From assembly GCA_021157815.1 (NCBI GenBank), contig JAGGVT010000035.1:1-18383 (forward strand): DNA of 18,383 nucleotides. The letters are read 5' to 3'. Positions 7,092 through 17,660 of this stretch are shown here, piece after piece. The notes under the pieces are model-generated. The model saw only the letters and a program-made list of their open reading frames with translations. It searched no databases and had not been told where the DNA came from. The translations under genes and the position numbers were made by a program. How positions within the stretch are numbered: position 1 is the first letter of the stretch; the number at the start of each line of letters is the position of its first letter. Source of the stretch: a bacterium. GTDB taxonomy: Bacteria > JAJVIF01 > JAGGVT01.

Positions 7092-9785
7092 CTATTCAAC
7101 CCACAATTTAACAACCTTGAACCCGCCGCCGCCATCGGCAAGATATGCCATGTTGTCCGCTATCGCGACATCATCGACATAACCATCGGTTTGTAATGAA
7201 CTAAAGATGAATGGGGCAGTTGGGTCAGATATATCCACAATGATAAAACCATCCGTTCCATTTGCAACATAGGCGAAATTCCCCGATACGGCAACATTAA
7301 TCGCCGTGCCAGCAGCAGTATCCGCCTCACCAACGATTTCCGGTGCGTTTGGCACAGTGATATCGATAACAAGCAATCCGCCCCAGTTCGCGGCAACGTA
7401 AACATAATTGCCTGAAATGAAAACTCCTTTCGGTGAATTCCCAGTACTAACAAAGCCTTCAACAAATGGCGCATTTGGGTTATTTATATTGACAACATGC
7501 ATTTTACCTTCTGTATCAGCAACATACGCGTATGATCCGGATACAACAACATCATTGGCATATCCGACAGTATCAAGCACGGCAACAACCTGCGGATTGG
7601 ATGGCACTCTGATATCGACAACCTGAAGCCCGCCGTCGTAATCGGCAATATAGGCATAATCGCCTTGAACATCAATACCCCATGCGAAGCCATCCGTGTC
7701 AACTGTACCTTCAAAAAAAGGAGCAAGCGGATTTGAAATATCCGCGACAGACAATCCATAATAATAATTGGCGATATATGCATAATTGCCTCTAACAGTG
7801 ACATCGTAAGCCCAGGTGGATGTATCAATGCTGGAGACAATTTCAGGATTGAAATCATCAGTGATATCGATTATCTTCAAATCACCAACTTTTGCAGCGA
7901 GGTATGCGTAGTCGCCATTTACAGTGATGCCATAACCACCGCCGGTTGTTGGCAACGCACCAACAACGTCAGGATTTGAGGGAACTCCGACATATACAAC
8001 TGTCATGCCGTATTCATCATCAGCAATATAGGCATAGTCACCAGAAACAGCAAGATCCTGCGTTATACCACCTGTGGGAACATTGCCGATTTCTATCGGA
8101 TTTGTTGGAACACTGATATCAACCACAGTCATTCCGCGATATGTGTTTGCCAGAAAGGCGAAATCACCCTTAACCTTAACGCCGTAAACATTACCATCGA
8201 TAGGAACCTCACCTATTATCACGGGCGATGACGGTGTACTGACATCAACAACTTTCAATCCTCCGAGACTAAAACCAACATAGACATAGTCTCCGGAAAT
8301 CGCGATACCTGCCGCAAAACCGTCAGTACTGTCAACCTCACCCTCAATGAAAGGGGCATTCGGATTGCTCACGTTAACCACTTTTAGACCGCCGTCACGG
8401 TCAGCAACATAAGCGTAATTGCCCGAAACGACGACTCCTTTCGCATCATCATCTGTTGGCGCGACACCTGTAATTTCAGGTTCGGCTGGATTGCTGCAAT
8501 CCACAACCGCCAGCCCGCCCATCCCATCAGCGACATAGGCATAAACACCCTGAACGTCAACTGCTTTCGCGTTTCCGTTTGTGTCTGCCCTTCCCATTTC
8601 AACAGGATGCTGCGGCACGCTGACATTAATGATATGCAGGCCATCCCACATATCAGCAACAAAAGCATAATTTCCAGAGACAGCCACACCAATTGCATAA
8701 CTGTCCGTTTCAAACGCACCGACAATTAGCGGGACCATCGGATTGCTTATGTCAATCACTTTCAAACCGCCGTCCCAATCCACCGCATAAGCGTAATCGC
8801 CCTGAACAGCGACATCTAAGCATGTGGACAGCATGTATATTCCCCCGGCTATTATTGGATTGACTGGAGCATCCCCGGGCGAGACAGTGATAATCACTTC
8901 ATCATATAGCACAAGCGAGCCTGAATTAGCGGAGTTTGCAATCATGTAACCGGCATATTCACCTGTTGGAGCACCTGTGTTGTTAGTGATAATCGTTTCC
9001 CAGTATTCCTCAGATGGATTATATGAAAATCCTAACAATGTAACCGAGGTAATAGCCGGGCAGAACAGATTCACATAATTAACATCATCCTGCCAGTCTT
9101 GTACATCCACTGTCAGATGCGCTGTCGCGCCTGATTCATCTTTCAGATATCCCTGTGTGAAATCTGCTATTGCGTATGGTTCGTTGCAGTTTCCTGGATA
9201 TGACACATCCACGGCGAAAGAAACACTTGTATTACCGCCGGGAAGGGAAATCAGCAAATTTTCCGTATGATTACCATGTGCTGCAAATCTGCGCATATCC
9301 TCAGTTTTGGCGAAAGCCTTAAACGGGTTAATCGGCAATCCACCCGCGCGATTATATAAACCTGTCCAGTCATCCGCGTTTATAAGTCTATGCCCAACCG
9401 CATCAGTGTAGATAATCAGCCGGATATCATAACCGTCAATAGCATACGGATTTGAAATTGTGAAATCGACATCGACAATGCCCGTTACCGGGTCATAGCC
9501 GTTCACTACAATTCCCGGTGATGGCAGCCACGGTGTTACATTGTAATGAACTGTTGAATTTCGATCTGGTTCGATAGTGGCAGATAATGATTCGATATCG
9601 AATGTCGCAGTATATATGCCCCAAAGCGTTCGATCTGAATCAGAAACATCCGAAACAGGCAGTTGGCTCAAATCCTCAATATATGGGGCAGATGGCGCCA
9701 CCGGTGATGTCGTGGATGATGAGCATCCAAATGACATGGCATATATAAAACATAAAGCAGTAAGAAACAGGTAATTTCTATACAT
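7092..9785 (-). CDS. LVIVD-repeat lipoprotein, predicted double seven-bladed beta-propeller
   Basis: This 897-residue envelope protein has a hydrophobic signal peptide ending in SFGC, a likely lipid-attachment Cys. The start ATG at 9783-9785 is chosen because GGAGGT (9793-9798) lies 7 nt upstream; a longer TTG-started reading would overlap that site. Residues about 25-310 form an unassigned beta-rich region (for example ISNPYAIDGYDIRLIIYTD). From about 310 to the end there are 14 consecutive repeats of about 42 residues with the pattern VxVSGxYAYVAD..GGLxVVDISNPxxPxxVG, the LVIVD repeat. Thirteen are complete and the last ends at the C-terminus. Fourteen blades fit two seven-bladed propellers. 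The role is unknown; related proteins are surface or secreted and often thought to bind partners or glycans. Confidence 0.9.
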   Translation of the reverse strand: MYRNYLFLTALCFIYAMSFGCSSSTTSPVAPSAPYIEDLSQLPVSDVSDSDRTLWGIYTATFDIESLSATIEPDRNSTVHYNVTPWLPSPGIVVNGYDPVTGIVDVDFTISNPYAIDGYDIRLIIYTDAVGHRLINADDWTGLYNRAGGLPINPFKAFAKTEDMRRFAAHGNHTENLLISLPGGNTSVSFAVDVSYPGNCNEPYAIADFTQGYLKDESGATAHLTVDVQDWQDDVNYVNLFCPAITSVTLLGFSYNPSEEYWETIITNNTGAPTGEYAGYMIANSANSGSLVLYDEVIITVSPGDAPVNPIIAGGIYMLSTCLDVAVQGDYAYAVDWDGGLKVIDISNPMVPLIVGAFETDSYAIGVAVSGNYAFVADMWDGLHIINVSVPQHPVEMGRADTNGNAKAVDVQGVYAYVADGMGGLAVVDCSNPAEPEITGVAPTDDDAKGVVVSGNYAYVADRDGGLKVVNVSNPNAPFIEGEVDSTDGFAAGIAISGDYVYVGFSLGGLKVVDVSTPSSPVIIGEVPIDGNVYGVKVKGDFAFLANTYRGMTVVDISVPTNPIEIGNVPTGGITQDLAVSGDYAYIADDEYGMTVVYVGVPSNPDVVGALPTTGGGYGITVNGDYAYLAAKVGDLKIIDITDDFNPEIVSSIDTSTWAYDVTVRGNYAYIANYYYGLSVADISNPLAPFFEGTVDTDGFAWGIDVQGDYAYIADYDGGLQVVDIRVPSNPQVVAVLDTVGYANDVVVSGSYAYVADTEGKMHVVNINNPNAPFVEGFVSTGNSPKGVFISGNYVYVAANWGGLLVIDITVPNAPEIVGEADTAAGTAINVAVSGNFAYVANGTDGFIIVDISDPTAPFIFSSLQTDGYVDDVAIADNMAYLADGGGGFKVVKLWVE

Positions 9786-9814
9786 GATAATTACCTCCAA
9801 GTAGTAGTTTGACT

Positions 9815-10069: not shown

Positions 10070-11413
10070 TTAAACAACACCTTGGTCGAGCATTGAATCC
10101 GCGACTTTTACAAAGCCTGCGATATTCGCGCCGTTGACATAGTTGCCGGGGGTTCCGTATTCCTCAGCAGTATCGTGGCACTGCTTGAAGATTGCTTTCA
10201 TGATGTTGTGGAGTTTCTCATCGACCTCTTCACGAGTCCAGCTTAGGCGAAGTGAATTCTGGCTCATTTCGAGTCCAGATGTCGCTACACCACCCGCGTT
10301 GGCGGCTTTGCTGGGGCCGTAAAGCATTTTGTTCTTGATGAAGATATTAACACCCTCTGGAACTGTCGGCATGTTCGCACCCTCTGAAACAACCTTGCAT
10401 CCGTTGCTGACAAGCGCCTGGGCGTCTTCCGCGCTGATTTCGTTCTGTGTTGCGCATGGGAACGCGGCGTCCGCTTTAATTTTCCAGACACCCACGCCCT
10501 CAGTGTATTTCGCATTCGGATATTTCTTGACATATTCCTTGATTCGTCCACGCTTGACATTCTTGAGATCCATAACGAATGCAAGTTTGTCACGGTCAAT
10601 GCCGTCTTCGTCAACGATGAATCCGCTTGAATCAGAAATGGTGATTGGTTTCGCGCCTAAGTCGAGGCATTTCTCGACACAATACTGCGCGACATTTCCT
10701 GAACCTGAAACAAGACAGGTTTTGCCTTTGAGAGTGTCACCTGCAGCTTTAAGCATTTCCTCGGCGAAATAGGTCACGCCGTATCCGGTTGCCTCAGGTC
10801 GAATCAAACTTCCGCCCCAGTTGCGGCCTTTGCCAGTGAAAACACCGGTGAACTCGTTTCGCAGTTTTTTATACATTCCAAATAAAAATCCGATTTCTCG
10901 TGCGCCGACTCCGATATCGCCAGCAGGAACATCAGTGTCTGGTCCAATGTGACGGAACAACTCGCACATGAAGGAATGGCAGAATCTCATAACCTCATTG
11001 TCCGATTTGCCTTTAGGGTCGAAATCGCTGCCTCCCTTGCCACCGCCCATTGGGAGTGTTGTCAGAGCGTTTTTTAAAATCTGCTCGAATCCGAGAAACT
11101 TGAGGATACCGAGATTGACTGTGGGGTGTAATCGAAGTCCGCCCTTGTATGGGCCTATCGCCGAGTTGAACTCAATACGGAATCCCTTCTGTACATGTAT
11201 CTCACCCTGGTCATCGACCCAGGGAACCCTGAACAATATAGTGCGCTCAGGTTCGACAATTCGTTCGAGAATTTTCCCCTTGGCGTATTTCGGATTTCTT
11301 TCGAAAACCACTTCAATTGATTCAACTACTTCGTGTACTGCCTGGTGAAACGTTTCTTCGGCGGGGTTTTTCGCCTTAAGATTCGCCATGAAATCATCTA
11401 CAAATTTTGACAT
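10070..11413 (-). CDS. gdhA: Glutamate dehydrogenase GdhA, canonical
   Basis: This 447-residue protein has exactly the length of the bacterial hexameric NADP-type enzyme (family GDH I) that interconverts 2-oxoglutarate plus ammonia and glutamate. All catalytic residues are visible: Lys90 in GPYKGGLRLHP, Lys114 in ILKNALTTLP, the active-site Lys126 in PMGGGKGGSDFDP, and Asp166 in PAGDIGVGAREIG. The dinucleotide-binding region VSGSGNVAQY, then SEGANMPTVPEG and KAANAGGVATSGLEMSQNS, also match. The start at 11411-11413 has AGGAG about 10 nt upstream. It is a single-gene unit ended by the terminator at 9841-9871 after a repeat-filled 3' region. It points away from a second, altered GDH gene 1.2 kb upstream. 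Confidence 0.95.
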   Translation of the reverse strand: MSKFVDDFMANLKAKNPAEETFHQAVHEVVESIEVVFERNPKYAKGKILERIVEPERTILFRVPWVDDQGEIHVQKGFRIEFNSAIGPYKGGLRLHPTVNLGILKFLGFEQILKNALTTLPMGGGKGGSDFDPKGKSDNEVMRFCHSFMCELFRHIGPDTDVPAGDIGVGAREIGFLFGMYKKLRNEFTGVFTGKGRNWGGSLIRPEATGYGVTYFAEEMLKAAGDTLKGKTCLVSGSGNVAQYCVEKCLDLGAKPITISDSSGFIVDEDGIDRDKLAFVMDLKNVKRGRIKEYVKKYPNAKYTEGVGVWKIKADAAFPCATQNEISAEDAQALVSNGCKVVSEGANMPTVPEGVNIFIKNKMLYGPSKAANAGGVATSGLEMSQNSLRLSWTREEVDEKLHNIMKAIFKQCHDTAEEYGTPGNYVNGANIAGFVKVADSMLDQGVV

Positions 11414-12488: not shown

Positions 12489-12617
12489 TCCATTTTTGGC
12501 GCGATTAGCCTTTCTATATCCGCCGTGATTTTGTGATGCCTGAATATGGGCATTTATCTGAAATCCGGCTTGCCAGCGCCAGTTATTTATTCTTTACCAA
12601 CCCAGGAGGTTGTTAAA

Positions 12618-13883
12618 TTGGCTGAGGAACTAAACACATTCGAAATAGCTAAGAAACAAATTGACGCAGCCGCGAAGAAGCTTAAACTGGATTCAGGACT
12701 GACTGAACTGCTTAAAACTCCGGCTCGCATGATGACTCTTGCAATTCCGGTCAAGATGCGCAACGGAAAAATCCATGTTTTCACAGGATATCGATGCCAG
12801 TACAACGATTTCAGAGGACCCACAAAGGGAGGAATCCGATATCATCCGGATATCACCGAGGATGAAATCAAAGCGCTCGCCAGCTGGATGACATGGAAAT
12901 GCGCCGTGTTGAATCTCCCCTACGGCGGCGCGATGGGGGGAGTGTCATGCAATCCGAAAGAGATGAACAACGCTGAACTCGAGGCGCTGACTCGACGATA
13001 CGCCTATATTCTCAGGGAACATGTCGGACCAAGAAAAGACATACCGGACCCGGATGTCTATACCGATGAACAGACAATGGCTTGGTTCATGGACACATAT
13101 TCCGTAATGGAATCAGAATACAAACCCGGAGTTATTACAGGCAAACCGATTGGTCTTGGCGGAAGTCTGGGCCGCGAGGAGGCAGTTGGACGAGGCTGTG
13201 TAATCCTTATCCGCGAGGCCGCGATGGCGCTTGGACTTGATCTAACCAAATCAACCGCCGCGGTTCAGGGTGCAGGTAAGGCTGGATCGGTTGCCGGACG
13301 TATTCTCGAGGAACTTGGCGTAACAGTTATCGCAATCAGCGACTCAAAAGGCGGAATTTACAACCCGAACGGGCTTAAAATCAAGGACGTTATCAGGCAC
13401 AAATATTCAAAATCGAACAAAAACAAGAGTGTAAAGGGATTCCCCGGCTCAAAACCGGTTACAAATGAGAAGCTCATGGAGATGAAATGCGATATCCTCG
13501 TCCCGGCAGCGCTCGCGAATTCGATTACCAAATCAAACGCGCGCAAGATAAAGGCGAAGATAATCGCTGAAGTCGCCAGCGGGCCGACAACTCCCGACGC
13601 GGATGACATCATCTACAAGAAAAACAAGGCGTTCCTGATCCCCGATATCCTCGCAAACGCCGGCGGTGTGACAGTATCCTATTTCGAATGGATTCAAAAC
13701 ATCAGCGGACATAACTGGACAGAGGATTATGTCCTGGATGAACTCGAGCGCTACATGGTCAGCGCGTTCAACGACGTGTACGAGATCCACAAGCGGAGCA
13801 AGGTAAACATGCGCACCGCGGCATACATGCTGGCAATGGAAAGAGTCTCCGAAGCGTTCAAGACTCGCGGCCTTTGGCCGTAG
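12618..13883 (+). CDS. Glutamate dehydrogenase-family paralogue lacking the catalytic lysine
   Basis: This 421-residue member of the Glu/Leu/Phe/Val dehydrogenase family resembles the short archaeal/Thermus-type enzymes. The TTG start at 12618 is chosen because AGGAGGT (12604-12610) lies 7 nt upstream; an upstream ATG at 12546 in the same frame would include that site and has none of its own. GPTKGGIRYHP (Lys70) and TWKCAVLNLP (Lys94) are intact, but the active-site motif reads PYGGAMGGVSCNP, with Met106 (ATG at 12933-12935) where the catalytic Lys belongs. Other signatures are also changed: EVASGPTTP instead of EGANGPTTP, DIPDPDV instead of DIPAPDV, and LANSIT instead of LENQIT. The nucleotide-binding GAGKAG is retained. 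It is probably not a normal glutamate dehydrogenase, and a regulatory subunit is one option. It is otherwise full length, so it is not a decaying pseudogene. Confidence 0.9.
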   Translation: MAEELNTFEIAKKQIDAAAKKLKLDSGLTELLKTPARMMTLAIPVKMRNGKIHVFTGYRCQYNDFRGPTKGGIRYHPDITEDEIKALASWMTWKCAVLNLPYGGAMGGVSCNPKEMNNAELEALTRRYAYILREHVGPRKDIPDPDVYTDEQTMAWFMDTYSVMESEYKPGVITGKPIGLGGSLGREEAVGRGCVILIREAAMALGLDLTKSTAAVQGAGKAGSVAGRILEELGVTVIAISDSKGGIYNPNGLKIKDVIRHKYSKSNKNKSVKGFPGSKPVTNEKLMEMKCDILVPAALANSITKSNARKIKAKIIAEVASGPTTPDADDIIYKKNKAFLIPDILANAGGVTVSYFEWIQNISGHNWTEDYVLDELERYMVSAFNDVYEIHKRSKVNMRTAAYMLAMERVSEAFKTRGLWP

Positions 13884-13913: not shown

Positions 13914-13949
13914 ACCCGGGGCGCTAAGGTCGCTCCGGGTTTTGTTGTT
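13914..13949 (+). terminator. Rho-independent terminator of the GDH-like gene
   Basis: ACCCGGGGCG (13914-13923), a 7-nt loop, and CGCTCCGGGT (13931-13940) form a 10-bp stem with one G-U pair, followed by TTTGTTGTT. It lies 30 nt after the stop. Confidence 0.8.
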
Positions 13950-14066: not shown

Positions 14067-17000
14067 GTGATTCCACTATTATTCAGTATGCTTTTCGTAC
14101 AGTGCTCAAAAGGCAGCGACACAATCATGCCGATTATCCCATCTGGTGATTATTCATTTCAGAACGAAAGGATTCTTCCGCCTGATGATTACGATGGTCG
14201 CGCTGGTTATCAGAACCGAACGAACGTTAGCCTTCAGGTAACAGGTCCCGCTGAATATATTTCGTCAAAACTTAATCCACCGTTGATAACCGAAATGAAT
14301 CCATTATTCTCCGCACGTGTGATTAACAATATTTCAAGGCTTGATGCGAAATATTTCAGCGCGACAATTGACAGCGAACATGTTATTTGCGCGTTCAATC
14401 AGGCATCGAATGAAGTATATTTCACATCTGCCAAACCACTTAAGAACGGCAAACATACTGCTGTTTTGCACTTTTCTAATCCCGACGGCTCCAGCAGAAT
14501 GCTTTATTGGTCATTTACGAGCAACACTGACCCACCTGAAATTCAAATTGTGATGTGGAACGATGAGGAGAAATTCGCGCTTGTTGTTTTCAATCGCGAC
14601 ATAGAACCTGATCTCCTGCATGATTCATCCCGCTGGAGGTTTAATGCAGAACAAGACATCTTGAGAGAAAATGTTGGCACCGTGGGCAATAACATGGCAT
14701 TCCTGCCTTTAAAAGATGTGGCTTTCGAAAAATACACTAATAGAACCGCATTAACTGTCAGTTTCATTGATAAGAACGGCATTGCGGATTATGTTGTCAA
14801 CCGCGGCGGTTCAGCAAGAAAAGGGCAAAGTGTTCCGTGCGGTGATTGCTCCGGCATTGAAATTACGTTTCCCCTTGCTGAACACAAATTTCTTGAGGCA
14901 GGGGCGGAAAAGTATGCACTCGCGTATGAAGTAACAAACCCATTAGAATGCAGTATTATCATGGAATGGGAAGGCTGGGCACGTGTTCCAATAGCAAACG
15001 ATGATCCTGCTGGTATTCCTGGAAACAACAATTGCGATCTTTACGATCTTGTTATTGATACCAAATGTGAAGGCATTGGTGAAACACAATCATCAGGAGT
15101 GCCCTATCCTGAAAGTTTTAGTATGGAATTTAATAATGGGACTCTTAAAACAATATCATTTAGTCGCAATTACGCGCATCATATCGAAATATCGTTCTGG
15201 GCTGACTGCACAGATGAACTTCGATACGATCGTGATGAACATGAATACAAGTTAGGAGAAGAAAGCATTGATTTCTCAGAATCCTTTGATTGCAAACACC
15301 CAGTGTTTGACTATAATCCAACAGTGTTGTGGGGTGATGAAGCTGCTGATCAGATAGAGTCCTTGATGGATGGTATCCCAATGCGAGGTGAACCTGTAAG
15401 TGGTGATATATATTGCAATACAATGTACAGAGATGATCCGGCTGAATATGATTTCAATGAAATGATGCAGGATTTGCGCGATCATAATTGCGATTTGTTT
15501 ATCGTGGCGCAGGCGAGTGATCCGATAAGCGGGAATCGTCGTGGAAACCTAGCGCCCTCCCAGATCACGCTTGACATGAAGAAAAACGATGGCACATGTT
15601 CCTATGACATCTCATGGTCAGGCGGGGAAATGCTTACCGGTGTCCTGGTTCTGGACTATAAACCATGGGGCAGTCCGGAATATGGCTATGTTGACGATCT
15701 TGAGCTTCTCACCTATCCCGATGACTGGCCTGATCCAAACTATCCTGTCGATACACCAGGAAATATATGGCACGATTGGTGCCCCGAGGAAAGTACAATC
15801 ATGGTGTGCAATCTGACCGATATTCTTACTGCCCCAAGCGGGGATGAGATAACGGGAATAAAAGTGCGTATAACCGACAACACACGAGATCCCGTAGATG
15901 GCTACCACGGCAACTGGCGTCGGAGCGAGGATGTCATGGAGCAGGTATGCCTGGTGCCAATAAGAAGTGGCAGCAGAAATGCTGCAGGGAAATTCTGTGG
16001 ATATGATACAAAAGCTGCATTTATTGAGAATAATCCATATGATAAAGTTCCATCCGATAAACCTACTGATCCTCATCCTGAGGATCATCTGAAGCGGTTG
16101 CATTATGGAGGGAAAACTGATGATAATAACACTGCATTTATCTCACTTCGAGACAATGATGGAAGCGCTTTTCTTGATTACTATATCGCTATTCAGGTAA
16201 CAGATCCGACAGTAATCGAGAATTTTGCAGATGAAATTGATATGGTTTTTTACAGCAGCGAAACGAGTATTCCAAACGGCATGGAGGATCTTAATTTTAC
16301 TTATCCAGGTCATGTCGCAGCGGTTGAGACCAAAGCCAAACGCTGTCATCCCTTGCCTTCTGGTGTAACTGATCCAGTAAAAAAGAGAATCTTTGATCTG
16401 TTGTTTGGCGATGGCATGCAACGTAACGAATGCCTGCTGTATCATGTGCAATTGGAAGTATCCGATTCCAAGAGAACAACAAGCAGCGATACTAATCCTG
16501 TGCTTTATGTCAGCTCGTCTGACCATAAATGGGGTACCGATTGGCTGGCAAAAAGAGACTTCGCCAAATCTTTTGATTCAGGATCAAATTTGTTAACAAT
16601 TAATGGATTTAGATTTGGATCTGAGGATAATATTCGTGGAACAGGAAGGAATTATGCAAAAGAGTATGAAGATAAAAAGAAAAATTCCTGGTATTCCTAT
16701 GATGAATTCATTACAAGTGGTGGGATTGAAACTGTCTATGCAAAAATCGTTGACGACGACTACAAACCCAGCTTGTTTTTTGAAGAAGAGCATTGCGTTG
16801 CTGTGCAAAGTGAATCTGATATAATTCTTTTAACTTCACACGGTGTCCCCGCTGGCGCAGTAGGAAAGAAATTCATACCTCCATTTTACAGCGAACTACC
16901 TTATCCATATTGGCCATATTACCAAGAAACTCATGATCCTGCTAGTTACTACTCGGATTATGGAATTGTAATCCCCCCCGATAATGATGGTTTAAATGCA

Positions 17001-17660
17001 TGGGGTTTTGGACGATGTGGTGACTTCTGGCAAAAAAATCATAGGAGTTCTAATGAGTGTGAACTACGATGGCTAACACTTCTTGCTTGCGAAGCATTAA
17101 CTCAAGGTCCAGTATCGGGCTCAGTTAATTGGAAGCAAAGAATTAGCTTTAATGAAACTGACCCAGATGATCATCCATATCTAAGTTCTGTTTGCGGTTT
17201 TCGCAAGTTTATTAAAGCACCGAATACATCTATTTCATTAGGTATAGCAGGGGACTTTCATCATGATATGGCGTTTATTAATAAATACAGTGCTAACATG
17301 GAGGAACTTTTTGATCCTGTGCAGAATCCGTTTCCTTATGAACCCATAAATCCATGTTCTACACAGGAAGGAGAACACCTGTGGCAATGCCCAGCATCGT
17401 ATGATATAAGTGTATCTGCCTGGATGGAAGCTGCCTGTCATGAGCTAAATACGGTAAGTAAGAAAAAACAAAAAGGATATATGAAACAAGGGTTGCGTTG
17501 GGCGGCTGGAATTGATCGCATGAATGTAGACCCCTATGAATACTTTTATTATTACCTTTATAGATATCTTGATCCTAATGAAAAGGGTCAAAAATGGAAA
17601 TTTGACATCAGAAGAACTGAAGATTTCATTAGTCCAGTTAAAGATCAACCAGATACTTAG
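14067..17660 (+). CDS. Very large lipoprotein with a possible caspase-like C-terminal domain; start out of frame across poly-C
   Basis: The open frame has 1197 codons, counted here from a GTG at 14067. That GTG has no ribosome site; the real start is probably the ATG at 14020, connected by a frame change in the C run at 14050-14057. The hydrophobic N-terminus ends in MLFVQC, a poor but possible lipid-attachment site (Gln at -1). Residues 20-860 are unassigned and beta-rich, for example ISWSGGEMLTGVLVLDYKPW and TDILTAPSGDEITGIKVRIT. Near the C-terminus, DIILLTSHGVP (His925-Gly926) and ELRWLTLLACEALTQ (Cys1008) follow hydrophobic strands, as in clan CD (caspase, gingipain-like) peptidases. A secreted beta-propeller-like gene starts 30 nt downstream, so the two may be co-expressed. 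The second half is more AT-rich than the GDH genes. The function is not recognised. Confidence 0.75.
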   Translation: MIPLLFSMLFVQCSKGSDTIMPIIPSGDYSFQNERILPPDDYDGRAGYQNRTNVSLQVTGPAEYISSKLNPPLITEMNPLFSARVINNISRLDAKYFSATIDSEHVICAFNQASNEVYFTSAKPLKNGKHTAVLHFSNPDGSSRMLYWSFTSNTDPPEIQIVMWNDEEKFALVVFNRDIEPDLLHDSSRWRFNAEQDILRENVGTVGNNMAFLPLKDVAFEKYTNRTALTVSFIDKNGIADYVVNRGGSARKGQSVPCGDCSGIEITFPLAEHKFLEAGAEKYALAYEVTNPLECSIIMEWEGWARVPIANDDPAGIPGNNNCDLYDLVIDTKCEGIGETQSSGVPYPESFSMEFNNGTLKTISFSRNYAHHIEISFWADCTDELRYDRDEHEYKLGEESIDFSESFDCKHPVFDYNPTVLWGDEAADQIESLMDGIPMRGEPVSGDIYCNTMYRDDPAEYDFNEMMQDLRDHNCDLFIVAQASDPISGNRRGNLAPSQITLDMKKNDGTCSYDISWSGGEMLTGVLVLDYKPWGSPEYGYVDDLELLTYPDDWPDPNYPVDTPGNIWHDWCPEESTIMVCNLTDILTAPSGDEITGIKVRITDNTRDPVDGYHGNWRRSEDVMEQVCLVPIRSGSRNAAGKFCGYDTKAAFIENNPYDKVPSDKPTDPHPEDHLKRLHYGGKTDDNNTAFISLRDNDGSAFLDYYIAIQVTDPTVIENFADEIDMVFYSSETSIPNGMEDLNFTYPGHVAAVETKAKRCHPLPSGVTDPVKKRIFDLLFGDGMQRNECLLYHVQLEVSDSKRTTSSDTNPVLYVSSSDHKWGTDWLAKRDFAKSFDSGSNLLTINGFRFGSEDNIRGTGRNYAKEYEDKKKNSWYSYDEFITSGGIETVYAKIVDDDYKPSLFFEEEHCVAVQSESDIILLTSHGVPAGAVGKKFIPPFYSELPYPYWPYYQETHDPASYYSDYGIVIPPDNDGLNAWGFGRCGDFWQKNHRSSNECELRWLTLLACEALTQGPVSGSVNWKQRISFNETDPDDHPYLSSVCGFRKFIKAPNTSISLGIAGDFHHDMAFINKYSANMEELFDPVQNPFPYEPINPCSTQEGEHLWQCPASYDISVSAWMEAACHELNTVSKKKQKGYMKQGLRWAAGIDRMNVDPYEYFYYYLYRYLDPNEKGQKWKFDIRRTEDFISPVKDQPDT

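Follow-up and report, generated by a model that had tools for sequence, protein, structure and literature searches.

A gene at 12618..13883 (+ strand) encodes a 421-residue protein of the Glu/Leu/Phe/Val dehydrogenase superfamily in which the catalytic lysine of glutamate dehydrogenase (GDH) is replaced by methionine. It lies in the window, the whole 18,383-nucleotide stretch of DNA analysed here (contig JAGGVT010000035.1 of assembly GCA_021157815.1). Judged from its sequence, the protein on its own is very probably no glutamate dehydrogenase, and it is best read as a pseudoenzyme; by analogy, it would most likely be a regulatory subunit working like the GdhA of Thermus. The loss of activity, the partner, the ligand, and the direction of regulation are all points that we infer, and they are argued below.

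A lysine-less member of the GDH family

Both Pfam domains of the superfamily, ELFV_dehydrog_N and ELFV_dehydrog, are present well over their cut-offs (PF02812, 178 bits against 25.3; PF00208, 248 bits against 23.4). The AlphaFold2 model, built with 32 sequences, is a confident GDH fold with a mean pLDDT of 92.7; its best match by fold among solved structures is the Thermococcus GDH (Z 61), and the nearest solved structures by sequence are the Thermococcus and Thermotoga GDHs. Archaeal-type GDH (NF040817; Thermococcus GDH 1euz, 8xcr) shares this fold and matches over the full length at ~50% identity. However, the best NCBIfam score of the protein, 542 bits to GdhA_Arch NF040817, stays under that model's cut-off of 750, and neither the lysine nor the N of ANGP is present.

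The reading frame is intact from its TTG start at 12618, with a ribosome-binding site AGGAGG (12604..12609, + strand) 8 bases 5' of the start and a terminator-like hairpin of the intrinsic type (13914..13940, + strand; 10 pairs, 8 of them G-C) 3' of the gene. An earlier note on this DNA had listed all of these parts as kept, together with a promoter; the promoter is the exception, for none was found on the + strand just upstream, in a region with 10 promoter-like sites against 6.2 ± 2.3 expected. The window has no Rfam match, thus no RNA regulator was found upstream of the gene and this idea was dropped. Directly 3' of the gene lies an ORF of 1197 residues (14067-17660, +) without a Pfam or NCBIfam match, and elsewhere in the window a 902-residue protein with 13 LVIVD repeats (7092-9800, -) is probably a surface or lipoprotein beta-propeller.

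The genome is 90.9% complete and holds three GDH genes. One is the gene described here; a second, at 10070..11413 (- strand), encodes a canonical NADP-type GdhA of the E. coli type, with GGGKGG intact and a score of 756.6 bits to NF006929 (cut-off 536), and thus belongs to another subfamily. The third, on a contig referred to as C66, encodes an intact GDH with GGSKGG that belongs to the same subfamily as the lysine-less protein and shares 43% identity with it. On C66 (L172:4684-9964, G000), a histidine kinase and a sigma-54 response regulator are followed by this GDH in the same orientation. No PII protein was found in the genome, and glutamate synthase is represented only by a weak partial domain match (24.7 bits over 110 positions), although the missing 9% could hold either.

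Residue changes at near-invariant positions

Homologues were gathered from public genome contigs, broadly sampled bacterial genomes, and Deinococcota, giving 297 distinct sequences that form a non-random set, as the first collection consisted of best matches. At position 106, the catalytic lysine of GGxKGG, 265 of them have Lys, 30 Ala, and 2 Met, the Ala count being inflated because Deinococcota were searched deliberately. The Ala-106 sequences are 29 Thermus-type GdhA proteins from Deinococcota and one paralogue from Planctomycetia, and the lysine is absent in only four lineages of the set: the window protein, a second Met protein (L112), the Planctomycetia paralogue, and the Thermus type. 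In the window protein the motif reads GGAMGG (K106M, codon ATG at 12933..12935).

Five further changes, all on the + strand, fall at positions that hardly vary among the 265 Lys-bearing homologues. They are D48R (12759..12761; D in 254 of 265), A144D, which lies two positions ahead of the catalytic Asp146 (13047..13049; A in 263), T190V in the GRxxATG motif (13185..13187; T in 263), N221K, right after the GxG of the nucleotide loop (13278..13280; N in 256, K in 5), and N321S in EVASGP (13578..13580; N in 263, D in 2). Ser at 321 is common only to the window protein and L112. The alignment also shows what is retained, namely K70, K94, D146, K176, R186, and S354, along with the GxGxxG loop. Measured against what a competent GDH carries, the catalytic lysine is absent (Met 106), whereas D146, K70, and K94 are present. 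From GDH structures, we assign K106, T190, N221, and N321 to the catalytic center and the cofactor side, and K70, K94, R186, and S354 to the substrate side. Hence the fold and the residues that would hold the dicarboxylate appear to be kept, while the lysine for chemistry and the cofactor-side pocket residues appear to be lost.

The earlier note had read several catalytic signatures as changed together. Its central observation, GGAKGG turned into GGAMGG at 12933-12935, is confirmed, and its statement that the other substrate lysines are kept holds for K70 and K94. The change from DIPAPDV to DIPDPDV is indeed exceptional, and so is the N-to-S part of EGANGPTT to EVASGPTT, but EGA to EVA is ordinary variation (G in 52, A in 51, and L in 8 of 114), and LENQIT to LANSIT is no signature at all, since these columns are variable (E in 94 and Q in 68 of 114). 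T190V, N221K, and D48R, on the other hand, had been overlooked.

How unusual such a combination is depends on the columns considered. In a first set of 72 near-invariant columns, with the E. coli-type rows included, the protein departs at 7 and keeps 65, and Lys-bearing homologues depart at 1.06 on average and at 15 at most. In a second set of 74 columns, which leaves out the E. coli-type rows and column 106, it has 5 departures against a mean of 0.83 in Lys-bearing homologues; 3 of 258 of these have at least 6, so the number of departures alone is not unique to this protein. It is the position of the departures, rather than their number, that stands out. Five columns (A144, S183, T190, N221, and N321) have changed at least three times across the four lysine-less lineages, and the window protein is changed at four of them. 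This recurrence has p = 0.009 in random draws weighted by the natural variability of each column (<1e-4 unweighted), in a test whose columns were picked from Lys-bearing homologues only and which was designed after the overlap had already been seen.

Thermus GdhA and other lysine-less proteins

The Thermus precedent invoked by the earlier note turns out to be closer than was claimed, as Thermus GdhA, described as a catalytically inactive, leucine-responsive regulatory subunit of a mixed hexamer (PMC9570180), has Ala at the very same lysine (GGAAGG in the aligned PDB 3AOE chain E). Thermus GdhA and its Deinococcota orthologues are full-length proteins of the same subfamily as the window protein; they have lost the same lysine, kept K94 and D146, and are mostly changed at 144, 190, and 221 as well. 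They differ in having Ala rather than Met and in being mostly changed also at 143, 323, 347, and 351. The leucine-site positions reported for Thermus (PMC9570180) are kept in the window protein (R127, D159, and the C-terminal RGLWP, located through alignment and counting), but leucine-site residues are also common in ordinary GDHs, with R417, Y/W420, and P421 occurring together in 103 of 265 Lys-bearing homologues. The two Thermus GDH subunits are 48% identical to each other.

L112, the second Met protein, comes from an unrelated bacterium (G230), in whose 68% complete genome no other GDH was found. It shares K106M, N321S, and N221K with the window protein, but the two are only 45% identical and L112 additionally carries M91A and R186G. 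Its gene lies in a run (L311:4748-12173, G230 C61) of a GAF histidine kinase, a double-receiver regulator, L112 itself, citrate synthase, and an ammonium transporter, and the gene order at the C66 GDH is similar to that around L112. A Planctomycetia contig (L100:3437-5985) holds a tandem GDH pair, the second member of which has Ala in place of the catalytic lysine and departs at 19 near-invariant columns; from its sequence, it is probably another regulatory subunit outside Thermus. A search for further Met proteins with a DNA pattern for [YF]GG-x-MGG only, outside which variants after Leu fall, gave 39 matches in 385 broadly sampled bacterial genomes, and among the 30 that were fetched, the only GDHs were the window protein and L112.

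Descent was assessed in quick trees with long branches and the trait columns removed. The window protein is placed near archaeal GDHs (Nitrososphaera, Bathyarchaeota, and Thermoplasmata), away from L112 and not clearly with the C66 GDH. The Met homologues, for which the earlier note had suggested asking whether they form a clade, do not (AU test, p 0.0026), and a single origin of all lysine-less GDHs is likewise rejected (AU test, p 0.0035). These rejections support more than one loss of the lysine; it was thus probably lost independently in different GDHs, the exact number of times not being fixed by these sequences. A clade of the window protein with Thermus GdhA is not rejected (AU p 0.074), though the tree sets them apart, and a sister relationship to the C66 GDH is not rejected either (AU p 0.158), though not supported by the tree.

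Proposed function and competing explanations

The earlier note had proposed a new job for the protein. A changed role in an intact gene is supported by concerted changes at near-invariant columns that recur in lysine-less GDHs, but the partner it named is not. That a pseudoenzyme should retain its substrate pocket, together with the analogy to Thermus GdhA, makes a regulatory subunit the best explanation. In the mechanism we favor, to which we give a probability of about 0.4, the window protein would join the catalytic, same-subfamily C66 GDH in mixed hexamers, where it may bind glutamate, 2-oxoglutarate, or leucine without turnover and tune the C66 GDH, as Thermus GdhA does for GdhB. The C66 GDH is, from its sequence, the best candidate partner and the neighboring GdhA a poor one. 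The C66 partnership is nevertheless unproven because the genes are unlinked and the sister relation lacks tree support. Whereas the Thermus GdhA gene adjoins that of its catalytic partner, and two neighboring GDH copies occur in 37 of 38 Deinococcota genomes with a match and likewise on the Planctomycetia contig, here the same-subfamily GDH is on another contig. The placement beside archaeal GDHs and the commonness of the leucine-site residues also count against a mixed hexamer. The partner named by the earlier note, the neighboring GdhA, is a very unlikely one: the two genes are divergent and ~1.2 kb apart, which speaks for a link, but the proteins belong to different subfamilies (NF006929 for GdhA) with 32% identity, and the lysine-less members found beside a partner adjoin a GDH of their own subfamily.

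Several other explanations have to be weighed. Bacillus GDHs bind other proteins, and glutamate synthase is a known GDH target. One may thus argue that homohexamers of the window protein bind a dicarboxylate or a nucleotide and regulate a target other than a GDH, such as a transcription factor, a kinase, or another enzyme, though this possibility is unlikely. The gene is unlinked and apparently monocistronic, L112 is the sole GDH found in its 68% complete genome and sits amid a histidine kinase, a regulator, citrate synthase, and an ammonium transporter, and a complex of GDH with glutamate synthase does exist (PDB 7mfm). Yet no specific partner was found, and glutamate synthase was dropped as a target because of its weak partial match in this genome. 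It is rather unlikely that the protein is still an enzyme, be it a slow GDH or one with another substrate or a chemistry that can do without this lysine. The substrate lysines, Asp146, and the GxGxxG loop would allow it, as would the completely preserved fold, but the lysine is missing from only four lineages of 297 sequences, the near-invariant T190, N221, and N321 are changed too, and Thermus GdhA, the sole characterized lysine-less lineage, is described as inactive (PMC9570180).

A decaying duplicate or a recent acquisition without function is improbable as well. No close orthologue was found, including in 3 other genomes of the phylum, and the codon usage and GC3 (0.57) of the gene are unlike those of most neighboring genes; but 421 uninterrupted codons, 65 of 72 near-invariant columns kept, a strong ribosome site, and a terminator are not what decay would leave. 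Its codon usage is also like that of the ribosomal protein genes (it ranks 4 among the 58 genes scored), which is a mild argument against decay as this measure separates genes weakly here. It is highly improbable that the Met codon arose through faulty sequencing or assembly. A single base separates AAG from ATG, but four more rare changes occur alongside the Met codon, and N321S is found again in L112, the independent Met protein.

As far as the searched literature shows, regulatory GDH pseudo-subunits have been described in Thermus only, and by sequence such genes score plainly as glutamate dehydrogenase. A broader and as yet doubtful proposal is that non-catalytic, pocket-keeping GDH subunits arose several times independently, with the same catalytic and cofactor-side residues lost in each case, and that in some bacteria without detectable PII they serve as glutamate/2-oxoglutarate sensors. 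Independent cases in which the same residues have disappeared would represent a repeated route to the control of a central nitrogen enzyme, and the recurrently lost residues would provide a signature for finding more regulatory GDH subunits.
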